In this document: one piece after another, positions 177 through 13,338 of the stretch
How the letters are laid out: the number at the start of each line of letters is the position of its first letter
Position numbering within the stretch: position 1 is the stretch's first letter
Source: Chloroflexia bacterium SDU3-3
Lineage (GTDB): Bacteria; Chloroflexota; Chloroflexia; Chloroflexales; Roseiflexaceae
Assembly: GCA_009268125.1 (NCBI GenBank)
Contig: WBOU01000009.1
Location: 1-64,000 of the forward strand
Reading direction: 5' to 3'
Length of the DNA: 64,000 nt
Notes under the pieces: generated by a model
Told to the model about the DNA's origin: nothing
What the model saw: the letters and a program-made list of their open reading frames with translations, nothing else
The model's database searches: none
Position numbers and translations under genes: made by a program

Positions 177-294
177 GTGGCGTGCGTTGAGCGCGGTGGC
201 CCCACCCCGTCCCATCTCGAACCGGGTCGTGAAACACCGCAGCGCTGAAGGTACTGGCTCCCCTGGAGCTGGGAGACAAGGTCCGCGCGCCCAC
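177..294 (+). rRNA. rrf: 5S ribosomal RNA
   Basis: The core matches bacterial 5S rRNA: AGCGCGGTGGCCCCACC, then CCCATCTCGAAC, then GTGAAACACCGCAGCGC, GGTACTG and GGGAGA, in the same order and spacing as E. coli 5S. The ends pair as helix I: GTGGCGTGCG at 177-186 with CGCGCGCCCAC near 284-294, allowing one bulged C. The length of about 118 nt is normal. A strong terminator follows within about 12 nt, so this looks like the last gene of an rRNA unit. The exact ends are estimated from helix I and may be off by a few bases. Confidence 0.9.
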
Positions 295-6439: not shown

Positions 6440-8506
6440 ATGGCTTACACAGAAACCGACCAGCTTGTGGTCAACACCATCCGCACGCTCTCGATCGACG
6501 GCGTACAGAAGGCCAACTCGGGCCACCCCGGCCTGCCACTTGGCGCTGCGCCCATGGCCTACGTGCTGTGGTCGCGCTTCCTGCGCTTCAACCCCAAAAA
6601 CCCTGGCTGGGCCAACCGCGACCGTTTCATCCTCTCGGCGGGGCACGGGTCGATGCTGCTCTACAGCATGCTTCACCTGTTCGGCTACGAGCTGCCGCTG
6701 GATGAGCTGAAGAAGTTCCGCCAGCTGGGATCGAAGACCCCCGGCCACCCCGAGGTCGGGTTCACGCCTGGCGTCGAGGCCACCACTGGCCCGCTGGGCC
6801 AGGGCTTCGGCAACGGCGTGGGCATGGCGATGGCCGAGGCCTACCTGGCGGCCACCTACAACCGCAACGGGCACGACCTGATCAGCCACTACACCTATGC
6901 GATCGTGAGCGACGGCGACCTGATGGAGGGCATCACCTCCGAGGCAGCATCGCTGGCTGGGCACCTCAAGCTGGGCAAGATCATCTACCTCTACGACGAC
7001 AACAGCATCTCGCTCGACGGCCCCACCAGCCTATCGTTCACCGAGGATGTGCTGAAGCGCTTCGACGCCTACGGCTGGCACACCCAGCGCGTGGAGGATG
7101 GCAACGACCTGGATGGCATCGAGGCAGCCATCCGCGCGGCCCAGGCCGACGAGCGCCCCTCGATCATCTCGGTGCGCACGATCATCGGCTTCGGCAGCCC
7201 GCTGCAGGGCACCAACAAGGTGCATGGCAACCCGCTGGGTGCCGAGAACCTGCGCAAGACTAAAGAGGCGCTTGGCTTCGACCCCAGCCAGGAGTTCGTG
7301 GTGAAGCCCGAGGTCTACGAGTACCTGAAGCAGTTCGCCGAGCGTGGCGCGCAGCTTGAGGACGAGTGGAACGAGGCCTTTGCCCGCTACAGCAACGCCT
7401 TCGCTAGCGAGGGACAGCAGCTGAAGCAGGCCCTGGGCGGCACACTGCCGATGAACTGGGATGTGCCGCTGCCGCGCTTCACCCCTGAGGATGGCGAGCT
7501 GGCGACGCGCCAGGCATCGGGCAAGGCGCTGGTGGCGCTGAAGTCGCAGGTGCCCTGGCTATTCGGCGGCTCGGCAGACTTGGCCAGCTCGAACGAGATG
7601 CCGACCAAGGACGATGTGTCGTTCCAGCCTGGCAGCTACAACAACAGCAACGTGTGGTTCGGCGTGCGCGAGCACGCGATGGGCGCAGCGCTGAACGGCA
7701 TGGCGCTGCACGGCGGCATCCGGCCCTATGGCGGCACCTTCCTGACCTTCTCGGACTATATGCGCGGCTCGATTCGACTGGCGGCGCTGAGCGAGCTGCC
7801 GGTGGTCTACGTGTTCACCCACGATAGCATCGGCGTGGGCGAGGACGGCCCGACCCACGAGCCGGTGGAGCACTTCGCCTCGCTGCGCGCGCTGCCGAAC
7901 CTGGTGGTGCTGCGCCCCGGCGATGCCAACGAGAGCATCGTGGCTTGGAAGATCGCCATGGAGCGGGTGCACGGCCCGACGGCGCTGCTGTTCTGCCGCC
8001 AGAAGCTACCGGTGTTCGACCAGAGCAAGCTCGGCTCTGCCGAGGGCACCCGCAAGGGCGGCTATGTGCTGATCGACGCCGAGGGCGGCCAGCCCGAGGT
8101 CATCCTGATCGCCACTGGCTCCGAGGTCGCGATCGCGGTCGAGGCGCACGCCAAGCTGGCCGAGCAGGGCGTGAAGGCCCGCGTGGTCAGCCTGCCCAGC
8201 TGGGAGCTGTTCGCGGCGCAGGATCAGAGCTACCGCGACGAGGTGCTGCCGCCTGCGGTGACCGCGCGCGTGGGCGTCGAGGCGGGCGTGTCGCTAGGCT
8301 GGCACCGCTGGATCGGCGACAAGGGCGTGTTCGTGGGCGTGGATCGGTTCGGCATCTCGGCCCCGTACAAGGAAGTGTACGAGGAGCTGGGCGTGACCAC
8401 CGAGAACGTGGCCGCGCAGGCGCTGGCCCTGCTGGGCCGCGGCGGCGATGTGGGCGGCGGCACGCAGGTGCCCGGCCACGCCAGCGGCAGCGAGGGCCAC
8501 TCCTAG
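6440..8506 (+). CDS. tkt: transketolase
   Basis: A 688-residue, full-length thiamine-diphosphate transketolase. It has the N-terminal TPP domain ([50 protein letters not shown]), the pyrimidine-binding domain ([37 protein letters not shown]), and the C-terminal domain ([26 protein letters not shown]). It moves two-carbon ketol units between sugar phosphates. The chosen ATG (MAYTETDQL) has GGAG 5 nt upstream and matches the family N-terminus; an in-frame GTG 33 nt earlier would add an atypical tail. It is co-transcribed with tal and ends at a perfect terminator. Confidence 0.95.
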
Positions 8507-8535
8507 GCGCTCTAGCGCCCAATCGCAGCATGCAG

Positions 8536-8568
8536 AAAGGCCGCCCCGGGCAATCCGGGGCGGCCTTT
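8536..8568. terminator. bidirectional terminator
   Basis: AAAGGCCGCCCCGG (8536-8549) pairs perfectly with CCGGGGCGGCCTTT (8555-8568). It lies between convergent tkt and the arginine decarboxylase gene. Confidence 0.85.
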
Positions 8569-8569
8569 C

Positions 8570-8603
8570 GCTGTGCTCGCAAAGCCGCTGTGCTCGCAAA
8601 GCC
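8570..8603. repeat. 17-bp tandem duplication
   Basis: GCTGTGCTCGCAAAGCC occurs twice head to tail (8570-8586 and 8587-8603), between the terminator and the stop codon of the decarboxylase. It appears to be a local slippage duplication. Confidence 0.8.
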
Positions 8604-8604
8604 G

Positions 8605-10167
8605 CTAGGCGCGCGAGCGGGCCAGGCTGGTGCGACGGACCACCGGCGGCACCTGACGACGAAGCGCAGAGCCAGCGCGGCGGCGGGGGGCCACCACCTG
8701 GGCGGCCTCGCGCACGCGGGCGGGCGTGGCCACCGGGGTTGGCTCCAGGGCCTCGCGGTTGTAGCCCAGCAGGCTCATGATCTGGGCCACGCTCTGCGGC
8801 AAGATCTCGCGCATCACCAGCTGGTCGCCATCCTGCTCGATGATGATCCGGCGCATCTCGGGGCTGAGGCAGTGGTGGGCCGCGCCCTTGCCCGAGATCA
8901 TCTGCTGGTATGCGCCCACGCCGAACACCGCGAAGATCAGGCCCTCGCCCTCGGCGGGCATCACCAGCGGCTCGTGGCCGGGGCGAGGGAAGAGGTCGTC
9001 GGAGTCGCAGGTGCGGCGTCCGCCCAGGCGCACCGACTGCGACTCCGTCTCCCAGCCATCGAGCGGCAGCACCATGAACTTCTGATCTTCCACGATCAGC
9101 ATGTCGGGCAGCGAGACCATCATCGAACCGTTAACCAGATACCACGGCTCCATGTCGGCCTGGGCCTCCTTCACCGCGCCCACCTGCATCAGGTAGACGC
9201 TGTGCGAGGCCACGGTGTAGCGGCCAAACTCGCCCATCACATCGGGCTGGGGCACGCCGTGCTCGGCGGTGATAGCGGCCAGCGTGCGCATCAGGCGGGC
9301 TAGGAACTGCGTGTAGTCGAACTGGAAACCCAGCTCGTAGGCGGATGTGGGCATGCCGCCGCCGAAGTTGAACATGTGCAGCGAGGGCACCTGCTGGCGC
9401 ACGCGGCTGTAGTTGATGGCCGAGCGGGCCAGCCGCGCCATCCAGCCGTCCATATCCTCGATCTGGCTGCCGACCATGGCGTGGTAGACCACGATCTGGT
9501 GGGGGGTACCCGCCACGCGCCGCGCGGCCAGGGCGATCTCCTCCTGGGTCAGGCCGAAGCGCTCGCCGCCGGGGTGGGCGGGGTTCACCGTCTCGGCGGC
9601 GTGGCGCTCGCGCACGCCCAGCAGCAGCGGCTTCGAGCAGTGGGCGAGGTAGGCATCCAGCTCCTCAAGGTCGTCGAGGATCGGGACGATGTTAGCGAAC
9701 CCGGCCTCGCGCAGCGTCACGATCGCGTCGATGTAGTTGCGCTCCTTCGAACCATTGCAGAAGATATAGCGGCTCTCGGGCAGGATGCCCTGCCGCCACA
9801 GGTGGTGGGCGATCACCACATCGGCAGCCGACGAGGTCTCGTACTGGGCACCGGCATTCATGGCCGTGCGCACGACCTCCTCGGCAAAGTTGGCCTTGGT
9901 GGCATAGGCGTACAAGAACGCACCGCGATAGCCAGTCTGGGCGCGGGCAGCATCGGCGTAGCCGTGCATGCGCTCGACCTGGGCGGTGATCAGCGGGCAG
10001 TAGGCGATCTCCAGCGGCGCGCCATAGCGCTCGGCCAGCGCGCTCAGATCGACCTCATCCGCGAGTAGCAAACGTCCATCCCGGCGACTGAGAAAATCAG
10101 TCAGGGCACCATCGGCTGTGATGCCATAGCGATTCTGAAGGTAATCGAGATAGGTCTGCTTGCTCAA
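8605..10167 (-). CDS. speA: PLP-dependent decarboxylase, arginine decarboxylase (SpeA)-like
   Basis: A 520-residue fold-III PLP decarboxylase. The N-terminal alanine-racemase-type barrel carries the PLP lysine near residue 91 (AYATKANFAEEV), ETSSAADV, IFCNGSKE, and the Gly-rich phosphate loop FNFGGGMPTS. The C-terminal beta domain has CDSDDLFPRPG, in which the Cys-Asp is the usual catalytic pair. The sequence best fits biosynthetic arginine decarboxylase (agmatine for polyamines), though SpeA is usually longer; other fold-III decarboxylases remain possible. The start is a TTG: it follows AAGGAGGG by about 9 nt and gives MSKQTYLDYLQNRYGI. The in-frame ATG 42 codons upstream adds a Ser/Ala-rich tail and lacks such a site. 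The Arg-rich C-terminal tail (about 45 residues) is unusual. Expression may be gated by the terminator at 10417. Confidence 0.75.
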   Translation of the reverse strand: MSKQTYLDYLQNRYGITADGALTDFLSRRDGRLLLADEVDLSALAERYGAPLEIAYCPLITAQVERMHGYADAARAQTGYRGAFLYAYATKANFAEEVVRTAMNAGAQYETSSAADVVIAHHLWRQGILPESRYIFCNGSKERNYIDAIVTLREAGFANIVPILDDLEELDAYLAHCSKPLLLGVRERHAAETVNPAHPGGERFGLTQEEIALAARRVAGTPHQIVVYHAMVGSQIEDMDGWMARLARSAINYSRVRQQVPSLHMFNFGGGMPTSAYELGFQFDYTQFLARLMRTLAAITAEHGVPQPDVMGEFGRYTVASHSVYLMQVGAVKEAQADMEPWYLVNGSMMVSLPDMLIVEDQKFMVLPLDGWETESQSVRLGGRRTCDSDDLFPRPGHEPLVMPAEGEGLIFAVFGVGAYQQMISGKGAAHHCLSPEMRRIIIEQDGDQLVMREILPQSVAQIMSLLGYNREALEPTPVATPARVREAAQVVAPRRRAGSALRRQVPPVVRRTSLARSRA

Positions 10168-10416
10168 CTCTTGCGGCCCTCCTTGGGGTGATGATGAATA
10201 CACCGACAGCGAGCAGCCCTGGGCGGATGCGTGGCCCAGGGCGGAAGGTGCGGCATGCGCGGCGGTGCCTGCGCTGGTGGCGCGGGCGGGCATGCACAGT
10301 GAAGATTCGTGGGTTGGGAAGCGATCGATTGCTTGTACCTCCTATCAGTGAACGCAGGCGCAGGCGCGCCAGCAGCGGGACCAGATCTGGTTCACCGCAC
10401 GCACTGACAGGGGCAC

Positions 10417-10442
10417 AAAAAACCCACACCTAGCGGCGTGGG
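10417..10442 (-). terminator. intrinsic terminator upstream of the decarboxylase gene
   Basis: On the minus strand CCCACGCC pairs with GGTGTGGG (one G-U) around a 4-nt loop, then six T. It lies about 250 nt before the decarboxylase start and downstream of a consensus promoter. It would therefore either end a separate RNA or act as an attenuator. Confidence 0.8.
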
Positions 10443-10726
10443 GGAAGGTACTTGCAGCAAGTTTGCGCGCCGACTAGCGGCGCATGGACATGGCAGCAGA
10501 CACCGAACCACCCGGCAGGTGAGTCAGTGGCGCGAGTCGAACCTGTTCGAAACGCACTAAATTGCCTTGCCCGTCCATATAGCCTCGGCAAAAGCCCCCG
10601 GAGCACCAACCCGAATGGCTACGCGAAGGTACCATTCACCCTGGCATTTCGCAATACCCGGTTGCCTAGAGAGGCGGTCAGGTATGCGCCGGAAGCACGG
10701 ATACGGTGGTGATTTCAATTCACCAA
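10417..10726 (-). ncRNA. putative structured RNA or attenuated leader of the decarboxylase gene
   Basis: A consensus promoter (10733-10760) and an intrinsic terminator (10417-10442) bracket about 300 nt on the minus strand. Visible hairpins, in transcript order, are TGGTGA/TCACCA at the 5' end, GAATGGTAC/GTA-g-CCATTC (one bulge), GCGCCG/CGGCGC, and the terminator. A 53-codon ATG frame (complement 10474-10635, ending ...SMSMRR) fits inside, with no clear ribosome site for its first ATG. I could not match the region to tmRNA, RNase P RNA, SRP RNA, 6S RNA, a T-box or a known riboswitch. No other gene is seen between 10168 and 10866; the leader from 10168 to 10416 shows nothing conserved apart from the TTG Shine-Dalgarno. 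Confidence 0.5.
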
Positions 10727-10732
10727 TGCGGT

Positions 10733-10760
10733 ATTATAGCGGTTTTCCGCCACTTGTCAA
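10733..10760 (-). promoter_or_regulatory. consensus sigma-70 promoter
   Basis: Minus strand: TTGACA, 16 bp, TATAAT, with both boxes perfect. It is the only perfect two-box match noticed in this window. It fires toward the putative RNA and the decarboxylase. Confidence 0.85.
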
Positions 10761-10866
10761 TAGATCGTTCACGACATGTTTTAGCCGATCCGGATGCCTT
10801 ATCTCAGCATTTCCCGCCCAGCGATGTCCGCTAGGGCCTAGGTGTTCTCAATCCACAGAAAATCTC

Positions 10867-10943
10867 TACCACTCAAGAATCCAAGACACCAAGGAACAAA
10901 AGGGGGCAAATGCCACGAAGGCGCAAAGCCACGAAGGCGCAAA
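10867..10943 (-). repeat. dispersed CCAAG/CTTGG intergenic repeat, copy 1, with a 16-bp tandem repeat
   Basis: The segment contains CCAAGACACCAAGGAACAAA and then AGGGGGCAAAT, closely matching the copy at 53541. It is followed by GCCACGAAGGCGCAAA twice in tandem (10912-10943). It lies in non-coding sequence upstream of the zinc-ribbon gene promoter. Confidence 0.7.
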
Positions 10944-11041
10944 ACCGCTGCGCCCAAGATGCATACGATGCAAAAAGACAGCAGACAGAACCCATAGACC
11001 CTGGGCCACGACAAGGGCGGCACCTACCGTGGCGCAGGGTA

Positions 11042-11050
11042 TGCTATACT
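11042..11050 (+). promoter_or_regulatory. extended -10 promoter
   Basis: TGC-TATACT lies about 40 bp before the start codon of the zinc-ribbon protein. No convincing -35 is visible. Confidence 0.55.
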
Positions 11051-11089
11051 GATGCGGCAAATAGCCCCACACACAACGAGGAGGATGGT

Positions 11090-11476
11090 ATGGTCGAGCG
11101 TATCTGCCCGTCCTGCCAGCAGGGCAACCCTGCGGAAGATCGCTTCTGTGGAAAGTGCGGCGCGGCGCTGGAGCGGCTGGAGCTGGCGCCTCGGCAGCAG
11201 CACGCGATCACGATCGCCGGGCGGAGCCTGCCGGTGACATGGCAGCAGGTGGGCAAGACAGCGGCGCTGGGCGCGGCCACCGTACTGGCCGAGGTGGGCA
11301 TGGCCTGGCTGCGGCGGCGGATGGCCCAGGGCGCAGCCGACCGCGTGGCGATTGAGCGACCGCAGCGCAGCGCAGCGCCAAGCCAGCAGCGCAACACGCC
11401 ACGCAACGCGGTGACGATCATCAGCAAGAGCGTGACCCAGATCTTCTACCCCGATGATGAGAAGATGGCTCGCTGA
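11090..11476 (+). CDS. zinc-ribbon protein with central hydrophobic segment
   Basis: A 128-residue protein. The N-terminus is a classic zinc ribbon of two CxxC knuckles (CPSCQQGNPAEDRFCGKCG). A moderately hydrophobic stretch follows at about 55-75 (VGKTAALGAATVLAEVGMAW), and the C-terminal tail is basic and Ser/Gln-rich. The ATG follows CGAGGAGGA by about 6 nt. It directly precedes the MoxR/VWA operon but has its own promoter and a 188-nt gap, so co-function is only a guess. Zinc-ribbon proteins of this kind are often membrane-associated or regulatory; no function can be assigned. Confidence 0.7.
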   Translation: MVERICPSCQQGNPAEDRFCGKCGAALERLELAPRQQHAITIAGRSLPVTWQQVGKTAALGAATVLAEVGMAWLRRRMAQGAADRVAIERPQRSAAPSQQRNTPRNAVTIISKSVTQIFYPDDEKMAR

Positions 11477-11567
11477 TCGGCGAAAAAGTGGTTTTCGAGC
11501 GGTTCAGATCATCAGATGATAACCAGCTAACTCTCATCCCGCTCCAATAGACGCCATCCGCCTAACG

Positions 11568-11576
11568 TGCTATGCT
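11568..11576 (+). promoter_or_regulatory. extended -10 promoter of the MoxR/VWA operon
   Basis: TGC-TATGCT lies 89 bp upstream of the first operon gene. No clear -35 is visible. It is the best candidate start for the operon. Confidence 0.45.
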
Positions 11577-11664
11577 GAACAAAAGAAACTTTTTCATGGC
11601 GTAAGACGTCTTTATCGGTGAAAGAATCGGCGGCACAACGGGCTTAGCGGAACGGAACAGGACT

Positions 11665-13338
11665 ATGGCGCAGGCGATTGTGACAAGAAATGATATCCAG
11701 CGGCGGCTCCAACCCATGGCGATGCGGCTAAGGCTGCGCGATACCATTCTTCTTGGAAGCAAAACCCTGTGGATGCCCCTCGCGCTCAGCGCGCTCATCC
11801 AGCTGATCGGCCATCTCGCTCCCATCCCCCAGCTTCTGCTCATCACATGTGCCCCGCCGCTGATCTGGCTTCTGGCCATGGTCGGCTTCCTGACGCTGCG
11901 GCCCATGCCTGTGGCCCAGGTGGCGCAGCGGGTCGACGGCCTGCTCGACCTGCGTGAGCGGCTGGCCACCGCGCTGGAGCTAGGCGGGCGCGCCGAGCAC
12001 GGGCCGGTGGATGATGAGCAGCAGGAAGATGCCCGCAGCGTCGCCCGCCAGATCCGCCCTCAGCAAGTGCCACTGATCTTCGACCGGCGCATGCTAGGGG
12101 CCGCGCTGGCCGCGCTGGCCTGCGTGCTGGCCCTGGTATTGCTTCCCAATCCGCAGGTGGCGGTGCTGGCGCAGCAGGCCGCCGTGCGCCAGAGCCTGCA
12201 GCAGGCCGCTCAGCAGATCGAGCAGGCCCGCCAGCAGATCGCCCAGGACACCTCGCTGTCGCCCGAGGAGCAGGCTGCGCTTGAGAAAGAGCTGGCCGCG
12301 CTGGAGCAGAAGCTGCGCGAGAATGGCGGCAACCGCGAGCAGGCGCTAGCCGATATTTCCACCGCCGAGGCCCGGCTCCAGCAGCGGATCAACCCGAACG
12401 CCGATGCCCAGAAGGCCGCTATGGATCAGATGGCCCAGAGCCTGCAGTCGCTGGCCGAGCAGCAGGGCCAGCCAAACACCAGCGCCAGCGCCGCCGAGCA
12501 GCTGCGGGCACTGGCCGACCGGCTGGAGCAGATGACGCCTGAGCAGCGCCAGCAGGCCGCACAAGCGCTGCAGCAGCAAGCCAACCAGCTGGCCCAGAGC
12601 AACCCGCAGATGAGCCAGGGGCTGGCCAGCGCGGCCCAGGCAATGCAGGGCAACGACGTGCAGGCCGCGCAGCAGGCGCTCCAGCAGGCCCAGCAGCAAG
12701 CCCAGCAGCAAGCCCAGCAGCAGCAGGCCCAACAAGCGACAGAGCGGTCGCTCTCGCAGGTGCAGCAAAGCCGCGAGCAGGTGGCACAGGCAGGCCAGCA
12801 GAGCCAGCAGGCCCAGCAGGGCCAGCAGCAGCAGGGCCAGCAGCAGGGCCAGCAGCAGCAAGGTCAACAGGGCCAACAGGGACAGCAGGGCCAACAGGGC
12901 CAACAAGGACAGCAGGGCCAAGGACAGCAGGGCCAGGGACAGGGCCAGCAAGGATCGCGGCCAGCGAATGGCCAGGGCGGAGGCGACGCCAACAGCCAAA
13001 ACCAGGGCGGGCAGACCGGCAGCGGCAAGAGCGGCAGCGGCCAAGACGGCGGCAGCGGCCAGGGCAACGAGGCCGGCGACATGATCTACCAGCCCTACAA
13101 CCCGAACGCCAAGCCGGGCGACCCCGACTATGTGCAGGGACAGCAGAACGGCCAGGGCCAGACCCAGGTGCAGCAGGGCCAAAGCCCGCTGCCGGGCGTG
13201 GCCAACGAGTCGCAGGTGCCCTACGAGCAGGTTTTCCCGCAGTACCAGCAGTCGGCCAGCGAGGCGCTCGATCAGAACGCCATCCCCTCCCACCTGAAGG
13301 GCTATATTCGCGACTATTTCTCGGAGCTTGAGCCATAG
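11665..13338 (+). CDS. Gln-rich membrane protein, first gene of the MoxR/VWA operon
   Basis: A 557-residue protein. Two N-terminal hydrophobic segments (about 32-52 and 55-75) are followed by a soluble loop and a third membrane segment (about 140-160, MLGAALAALACVLALVLLP). Residues about 165-370 are a long Gln/Ala-rich, probably coiled-coil region. Residues about 370-440 are almost pure Gln-Gly low complexity (repeated QQGQ), then Gly/Ser-rich linker. The last 50 residues regain normal composition (VPYEQVFPQYQQSASEALDQ ... HLKGYIRDYFSELEP) and look like a conserved tail. The architecture resembles DUF4175-like proteins found with MoxR/VWA operons, but I cannot confirm the family. Function is unknown; the coiled coil may scaffold the VWA proteins. 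Only a weak Shine-Dalgarno is seen. Confidence 0.7.
   Translation: MAQAIVTRNDIQRRLQPMAMRLRLRDTILLGSKTLWMPLALSALIQLIGHLAPIPQLLLITCAPPLIWLLAMVGFLTLRPMPVAQVAQRVDGLLDLRERLATALELGGRAEHGPVDDEQQEDARSVARQIRPQQVPLIFDRRMLGAALAALACVLALVLLPNPQVAVLAQQAAVRQSLQQAAQQIEQARQQIAQDTSLSPEEQAALEKELAALEQKLRENGGNREQALADISTAEARLQQRINPNADAQKAAMDQMAQSLQSLAEQQGQPNTSASAAEQLRALADRLEQMTPEQRQQAAQALQQQANQLAQSNPQMSQGLASAAQAMQGNDVQAAQQALQQAQQQAQQQAQQQQAQQATERSLSQVQQSREQVAQAGQQSQQAQQGQQQQGQQQGQQQQGQQGQQGQQGQQGQQGQQGQGQQGQGQGQQGSRPANGQGGGDANSQNQGGQTGSGKSGSGQDGGSGQGNEAGDMIYQPYNPNAKPGDPDYVQGQQNGQGQTQVQQGQSPLPGVANESQVPYEQVFPQYQQSASEALDQNAIPSHLKGYIRDYFSELEP

Follow-up and report, generated by a model that had tools for sequence, protein, structure and literature searches.

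The gene for a short-form arginine decarboxylase, speA, is preceded on the minus strand of the window (the whole stretch of 64,000 nucleotides analysed here, from Chloroflexia bacterium SDU3-3) by a structured RNA of about 310 nt that has its own promoter, a short open reading frame (ORF) and an intrinsic terminator. The comparison with relatives described below makes it very probable that this element is some form of cis-acting leader of speA and, with moderate confidence, we favour that it acts as a translation-dependent transcription attenuator of the gene. It would be an order-wide regulatory RNA placed before the gene through which arginine is committed to polyamine synthesis.

The promoter, of the sigma-70 type, is an exact TTGACA-N16-TATAAT at 10760-10733 of the minus strand, the sole exact match in the 64 kb (0 expected from 100 shuffles), with transcription predicted to start around 10725. 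The fold of the window sequence begins with a 5' hairpin, GGTGA..TCACC (10724-10708), which RNAalifold predicts independently in several families with compensatory pairs. There follow the domain called here P1 (10696-10594), a Shine-Dalgarno-like GAGG recognised by comparison with homologues (10586-10583), a leader ORF of 34 codons (10578-10474) and a predicted hairpin, P3 (10484-10466), with the leader stop codon inside its loop, which was also spotted by eye in several relatives, not in all. The terminator (10442-10417) consists of an 8-bp stem at 10442-10423 followed by T6 at 10422-10417, and is the only terminator-like site found in 8000-13000. The 312 nt between 10728 and 10417 have a stable predicted fold (-130.5 kcal/mol, z = -2.7). 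A first-pass annotation, made from the letters alone, had reported this promoter as perfect and the strongest noticed in the window, a terminator before speA and stable hairpins across some 300 nt, and all three observations held; the leader ORF and the conservation of the element across the order were both absent from it.

An initial BLAST covering 60 relatives gave one clear homologue of the element, in another genus and with 73% identity, likewise located before speA. Among loci fetched with the speA protein as query, the architecture of promoter, 5' hairpin, P1, leader ORF and terminator was found before short-form speA in all 52 readable loci, which represent 20 genera and four families of the order Chloroflexales. 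The order of the parts in the homologues is promoter, leader ATG, terminator and speA; in nearly all of them a near-consensus promoter (TTGACn-N16/17-TAnnnT) precedes the leader ATG by 137-226 nt. The leader ORF starts with ATGGACG or ATGAACG (ATGGACA once), and most leaders have a Shine-Dalgarno-like sequence upstream, which is weaker or displaced in Roseiflexus-type, g5 and some f2 leaders. A terminator-like hairpin occupies the equivalent place in nearly all genera, with no good U tract in f1g2; the terminator positions of f1g2 and L104 were placed by hand. Two Herpetosiphonaceae loci (L069, L078) show a second hairpin and T-run between the first terminator and speA, that is, tandem terminators. 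Right behind the U tract of the window there is a conserved GCCC (10416-10410), complementary to the 3' arm of the terminator, and a CCC, mostly GCCC, was seen no more than 14 nt from the U tract in 39 of 48 leaders scanned; it would be transcribed only on read-through.

Named records place these leaders in Roseiflexaceae (Roseiflexus, Kouleothrix), Herpetosiphonaceae and Chloroflexaceae (Chloroflexus, Chloroploca, Oscillochloris, Viridilinea). Around 61 of the 69 named loci have the element, the rest being three cut by contig ends, two second paralogues and three Firmicutes without it. The element was absent upstream of these three speA homologues from Firmicutes MAGs (31-34% identity), as well as upstream of homologues of about 40% identity from elsewhere in the phylum (G304, G068, G130). 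Sequence comparison shows conservation of the leader and of its linkage to speA, as well as of P1, the ORF and the terminator.

The downstream gene (10167-8605, minus strand) probably starts with the TTG at 10167, preceded by AAGGAGG, and not with the ATG at 10293; from this TTG it encodes a protein of 520 amino acids of the alanine-racemase-fold type; the GGAGG followed by a TTG start is retained in the homologues. The protein scores above the cut-off of Pfam Orn_Arg_deC_N and below the equivalog cut-offs of speA and lysA; it is a divergent pyridoxal-phosphate decarboxylase, with predicted arginine specificity. The Pfam match and the short form agree with the homologue of Chloroflexus aurantiacus, listed as an "ancestral short-form ADC" (PMC7857480). 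In two f2 loci (L095, L096) the gene just upstream of the leader resembles by eye an arginase/agmatinase, a neighbour consistent with arginine metabolism. Second speA paralogues (49-51% identity) in L214 and L216 have no recognisable leader. A second Shine-Dalgarno-like sequence, AGGAGG, was read by eye between the terminator and speA (10343-10332); the frame that follows is open and in phase with speA and begins with ATC/ATA instead of a usual start codon, an arrangement seen in the window, in G003 and in Herpetosiphonaceae (L066, L069, L078).

The RNA is a previously uncatalogued family, missing from Rfam. None of the 4227 families of Rfam 15 reaches its gathering score in the promoter-terminator region, and a relaxed search with E values up to 5 gave nothing credible at the element, the only sub-threshold match being ybhL on the opposite strand (E = 1.9). 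The claim of the first-pass annotation that the region matches no RNA class stands against this database, including tmRNA and RNase P, which it had named as examples of known families. Identity with tmRNA, RNase P, SRP RNA or a riboswitch family was rejected on the lack of any Rfam match, and identity with 6S RNA because the 6S locus of the genome lies on another contig (G000:C7). In the same window a 5S rRNA occupies 178-293 (plus strand), and the covariance-model search with Rfam located an azaaromatic (yjdF) riboswitch at 46038-45936 (minus strand, 85.7 bits), directly followed by an ORF (45946-45506, minus strand) whose product, MSTLTVYFADPWWVGVIEEACGD..., resembles YjdF. Searches of open-licence papers for structured RNAs, leader peptides and leaders of arginine decarboxylase in Chloroflexus gave no description of the element, an absence that is no proof of novelty; PMC2965389 mentions neither the phylum nor the gene, and PMC2864571 has for Chloroflexi only the Chloroflexi-1 and pan RNAs. 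Chloroflexi-1 (RF01698), which PMC2864571 lists for Chloroflexus aggregans, belongs to the same phylum but has no match in the window or in the loci of nine relatives. The alphaproteobacterial speF RNA (RF00518) is also structured and likewise takes its name from a polyamine decarboxylase gene, whereas the element does not match its model even at E = 5.

P1 is the firmest structural part of the leader. Its helix, formed in the window by GCTTCCGG (10696-10689) and CCGGGGGC (10601-10594), is present with 8-10 bp in 34 of 34 lineages, in every case with the end of its 3' strand 12-14 nt upstream of the ATG. Covariation among homologues, which the first-pass annotation had proposed to look for, was found in all of these lineages, with compensatory changes along the helix (Fisher combined p = 1e-16), as in the strand pairs GCUCAUCUGG/CCAGAUGAGC, GCUUAUCUGG/CCAGAUAAGC, ACCCACUCGA/UCGAGUGGGU, GCUUUCCUGG/CCAGGGAAGC and GCCUUCUCGG/CCGAGCAGGC. 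The domain fold in the window has a z of -2.5. The helix encloses a branched interior that varies in sequence and size between families and is conserved only within them, strongly so in Chloroflexaceae (mean column identity of 80%). In Chloroflexaceae (A6, L100-L114) the interior looks like two heptamer repeats in inverted orientation (GTTnCGn / CGnAACA), and several repeat hairpins like it occur in genome G211.

These properties bear on the possibility that the leader is a riboswitch, in which P1 would bind a metabolite (arginine, agmatine, a polyamine or other) and directly control the terminator or the start of the leader ORF, the ORF being secondary. The best-conserved structure directly adjoins the leader Shine-Dalgarno, and in Chloroflexaceae it is the interior of the domain that is strongly conserved and not the C-terminus of the ORF. 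However, a ligand pocket common to all families would not usually differ among them in sequence and size as this interior does, the Chloroflexaceae interior in part resembles heptamer repeats and there is no match in Rfam, so we regard a riboswitch of this kind as rather unlikely.

The attenuator that we favour would depend on the translation of the leader ORF, whose product in the window is MDGQGNLVRFEQVRLAPLTHLPGGSVSAAMSMRR (MDGQGNLVRF...MRR, then the stop codon). The frame opened by the conserved ATG is kept in the homologues, with 23-42 codons in 52 of 52 leaders; lengths in the range 22-42 occur in 20 of 20 genera for this frame, compared with only 2 and 3 of the 20 genera for the other two frames; the chance of a stop-free frame in all genera is around 4e-6 if the genera are taken as independent. 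Selection on the peptide is much less evident, with a BLOSUM-based z of 0.8 in Roseiflexaceae and of 2.3 for the first eight codons of all the leaders. This weak selection suggests that being translated, or stop-free, seems weightier for the leader ORF than the sequence of the peptide.

A classical or arrest leader-peptide attenuator, in which arginine or ornithine would be sensed through particular codons or the nascent peptide, as has been suggested for orf34/SpeFL, could account for an ORF of 34 codons in most Roseiflexaceae leaders, for the Arg-Arg-stop that ends the window peptide and for the partly conserved MDGxxNL of the N-terminus. Nevertheless, Arg codons are not enriched in the leader ORFs (11.9% vs 11.7 +/- 1.1% in shuffles), the C-terminus is not conserved and no consecutive-Arg motif is shared among the 52 leader peptides. 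Attenuation through Arg codons was rejected on the first of these grounds and a conserved arrest peptide was rejected as unlikely, as overall selection at the amino-acid level is lacking, which leaves sensing by codons or peptide as an improbable explanation.

For the translation-dependent attenuator, two further pairings are relevant. In P2, leader codons 1-5 (10578-10564) pair with a 3' strand at 10503-10484, near the end of the ORF, a partner that in Herpetosiphon falls beyond it. In the proposed antiterminator, AT, the segment from around ATG+61 to +76 (10514-10499), which overlaps the 3' strand of P2, pairs with a strand at 10451-10435 that overlaps the 5' arm of the terminator. In the 12 Roseiflexaceae leaders compared, 92% of the P2 cells are paired, versus 31-59% when the strands are slid, and two of the pairs are compensated. 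For the upper AT helix the corresponding values are 88% and 35-71%; the pairs of P2 and AT were picked partly by eye before counting. Comparison with shuffles in the 20 genera gave combined p values of 4e-5 for P2 and 3e-6 for AT, both optimistic as the genera are related. Each pairing is weak in many single genera: P2 is unconvincing in f1g2, f1g8, f2g14 and f4g16, and AT is weak in the window's own sequence (p = 0.24). Blocking codons 1-6 in the fold made the AT strand the predicted partner of the terminator arm in the majority of Roseiflexaceae genera. Overlaps connect P2, AT and the terminator in the manner of an attenuator, and AT pairing would exclude both of the others. The P2 and AT pairings are supported, not proven, by these comparisons.

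From this arrangement we infer a switch, along with its direction and its signal. The strong promoter would make a leader of about 310 nt in which P1 folds first, leaving the Shine-Dalgarno and the AUG of the 34-codon ORF just 3' of it. With no ribosome on the first codons, P2 would pair, the terminator would form and transcription would end before speA. A ribosome located on these codons during the passage of the polymerase, through slow or stalled early elongation, would block P2, allowing AT to capture the 5' arm of the terminator and disarm it, so that speA would be transcribed. The signal may be sensed by P1, by the early translation of the leader ORF or by both, and the terminated leader could also act in trans. 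A bolder and doubtful version is that P1 is a new sensor of a ligand or protein that gates initiation of the leader ORF, the leader ribosome then setting the P2/AT/terminator switch; if true, a two-stage attenuator made of an aptamer plus a leader ORF would govern the flux from arginine to agmatine.

The linkage to speA was also investigated with genome-wide searches. A covariance model from two leaders (R1) gave nine matches in the genomes of 40 relatives, one in each of nine genomes, and all of them were speA leaders. A model from Chloroflexaceae leaders only (R2), searched in 301 genomes of the phylum, matched Chloroflexaceae speA leaders and, end to end, those of Herpetosiphon; the leftover matches were fragments, namely contig-end pieces, a match of 37 nt in a single Chloroflexaceae genome and, in G211, five hairpins of heptamer repeats, and outside the order nothing was found among these genomes beyond the repeats of G211. 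Short 15-mer matches to viral contigs were rejected as chance-level.

The first-pass annotation had left the choice between a new stand-alone RNA and a leader acting on speA through premature termination, with arginine or polyamines as suggested signals. The invariant synteny with speA (52/52), the single copy per genome and the position of the terminator between RNA and gene support the leader and disfavour the stand-alone RNA. The latter would be a small RNA, possibly of dual function (regulatory RNA or mRNA of a micro-protein), with the terminator as its natural end and speA expressed by read-through or from another promoter. Such an RNA would fit the strong promoter, the terminator in nearly all genera and the conserved ORF, but it was never found apart from speA in the R1 and R2 searches, a second consensus promoter was sought in 8000-13000 and not found, and the peptide shows little selection, all of which make it very unlikely. 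A functionless coincidence of a promoter, a GC-rich region and a terminator can practically be dismissed, being contradicted by conservation, covariation and synteny, even if fewer terminators are counted in the region than in the shuffles on average.

We compared the speA attenuator with known systems. Like the trp, his and leu attenuators, it has a leader ORF and an intrinsic terminator, and the hairpins proposed for it would be mutually exclusive as in those attenuators, whereas it lacks a run of codons for an amino acid of the pathway, has the extra P1 domain upstream and precedes a gene that consumes arginine. The closest functional precedent appears to be the speF leader of Salmonella and E. 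coli, in which premature termination and alternative RNA structures are under the control of orf34 (SpeFL) translation (PMC6386406). Both are long structured leaders of a decarboxylase gene of the polyamine pathway with a short ORF, of 34 codons in the window, as in the name of the enterobacterial orf34. By contrast, the enterobacterial gene encodes ornithine decarboxylase and ours arginine decarboxylase in a different phylum, termination is Rho-dependent there and an intrinsic terminator is present here, and the consecutive Arg codons that matter there have no counterpart in Arg enrichment here, where a covarying P1 is added. Given these differences, the speA leader is best seen as an analogue, not a member, of the orf34/SpeFL leader. 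Control through a leader ORF would parallel that of the enterobacterial ornithine decarboxylase with different parts, suggesting that leader translation has been convergently recruited to control polyamine synthesis.
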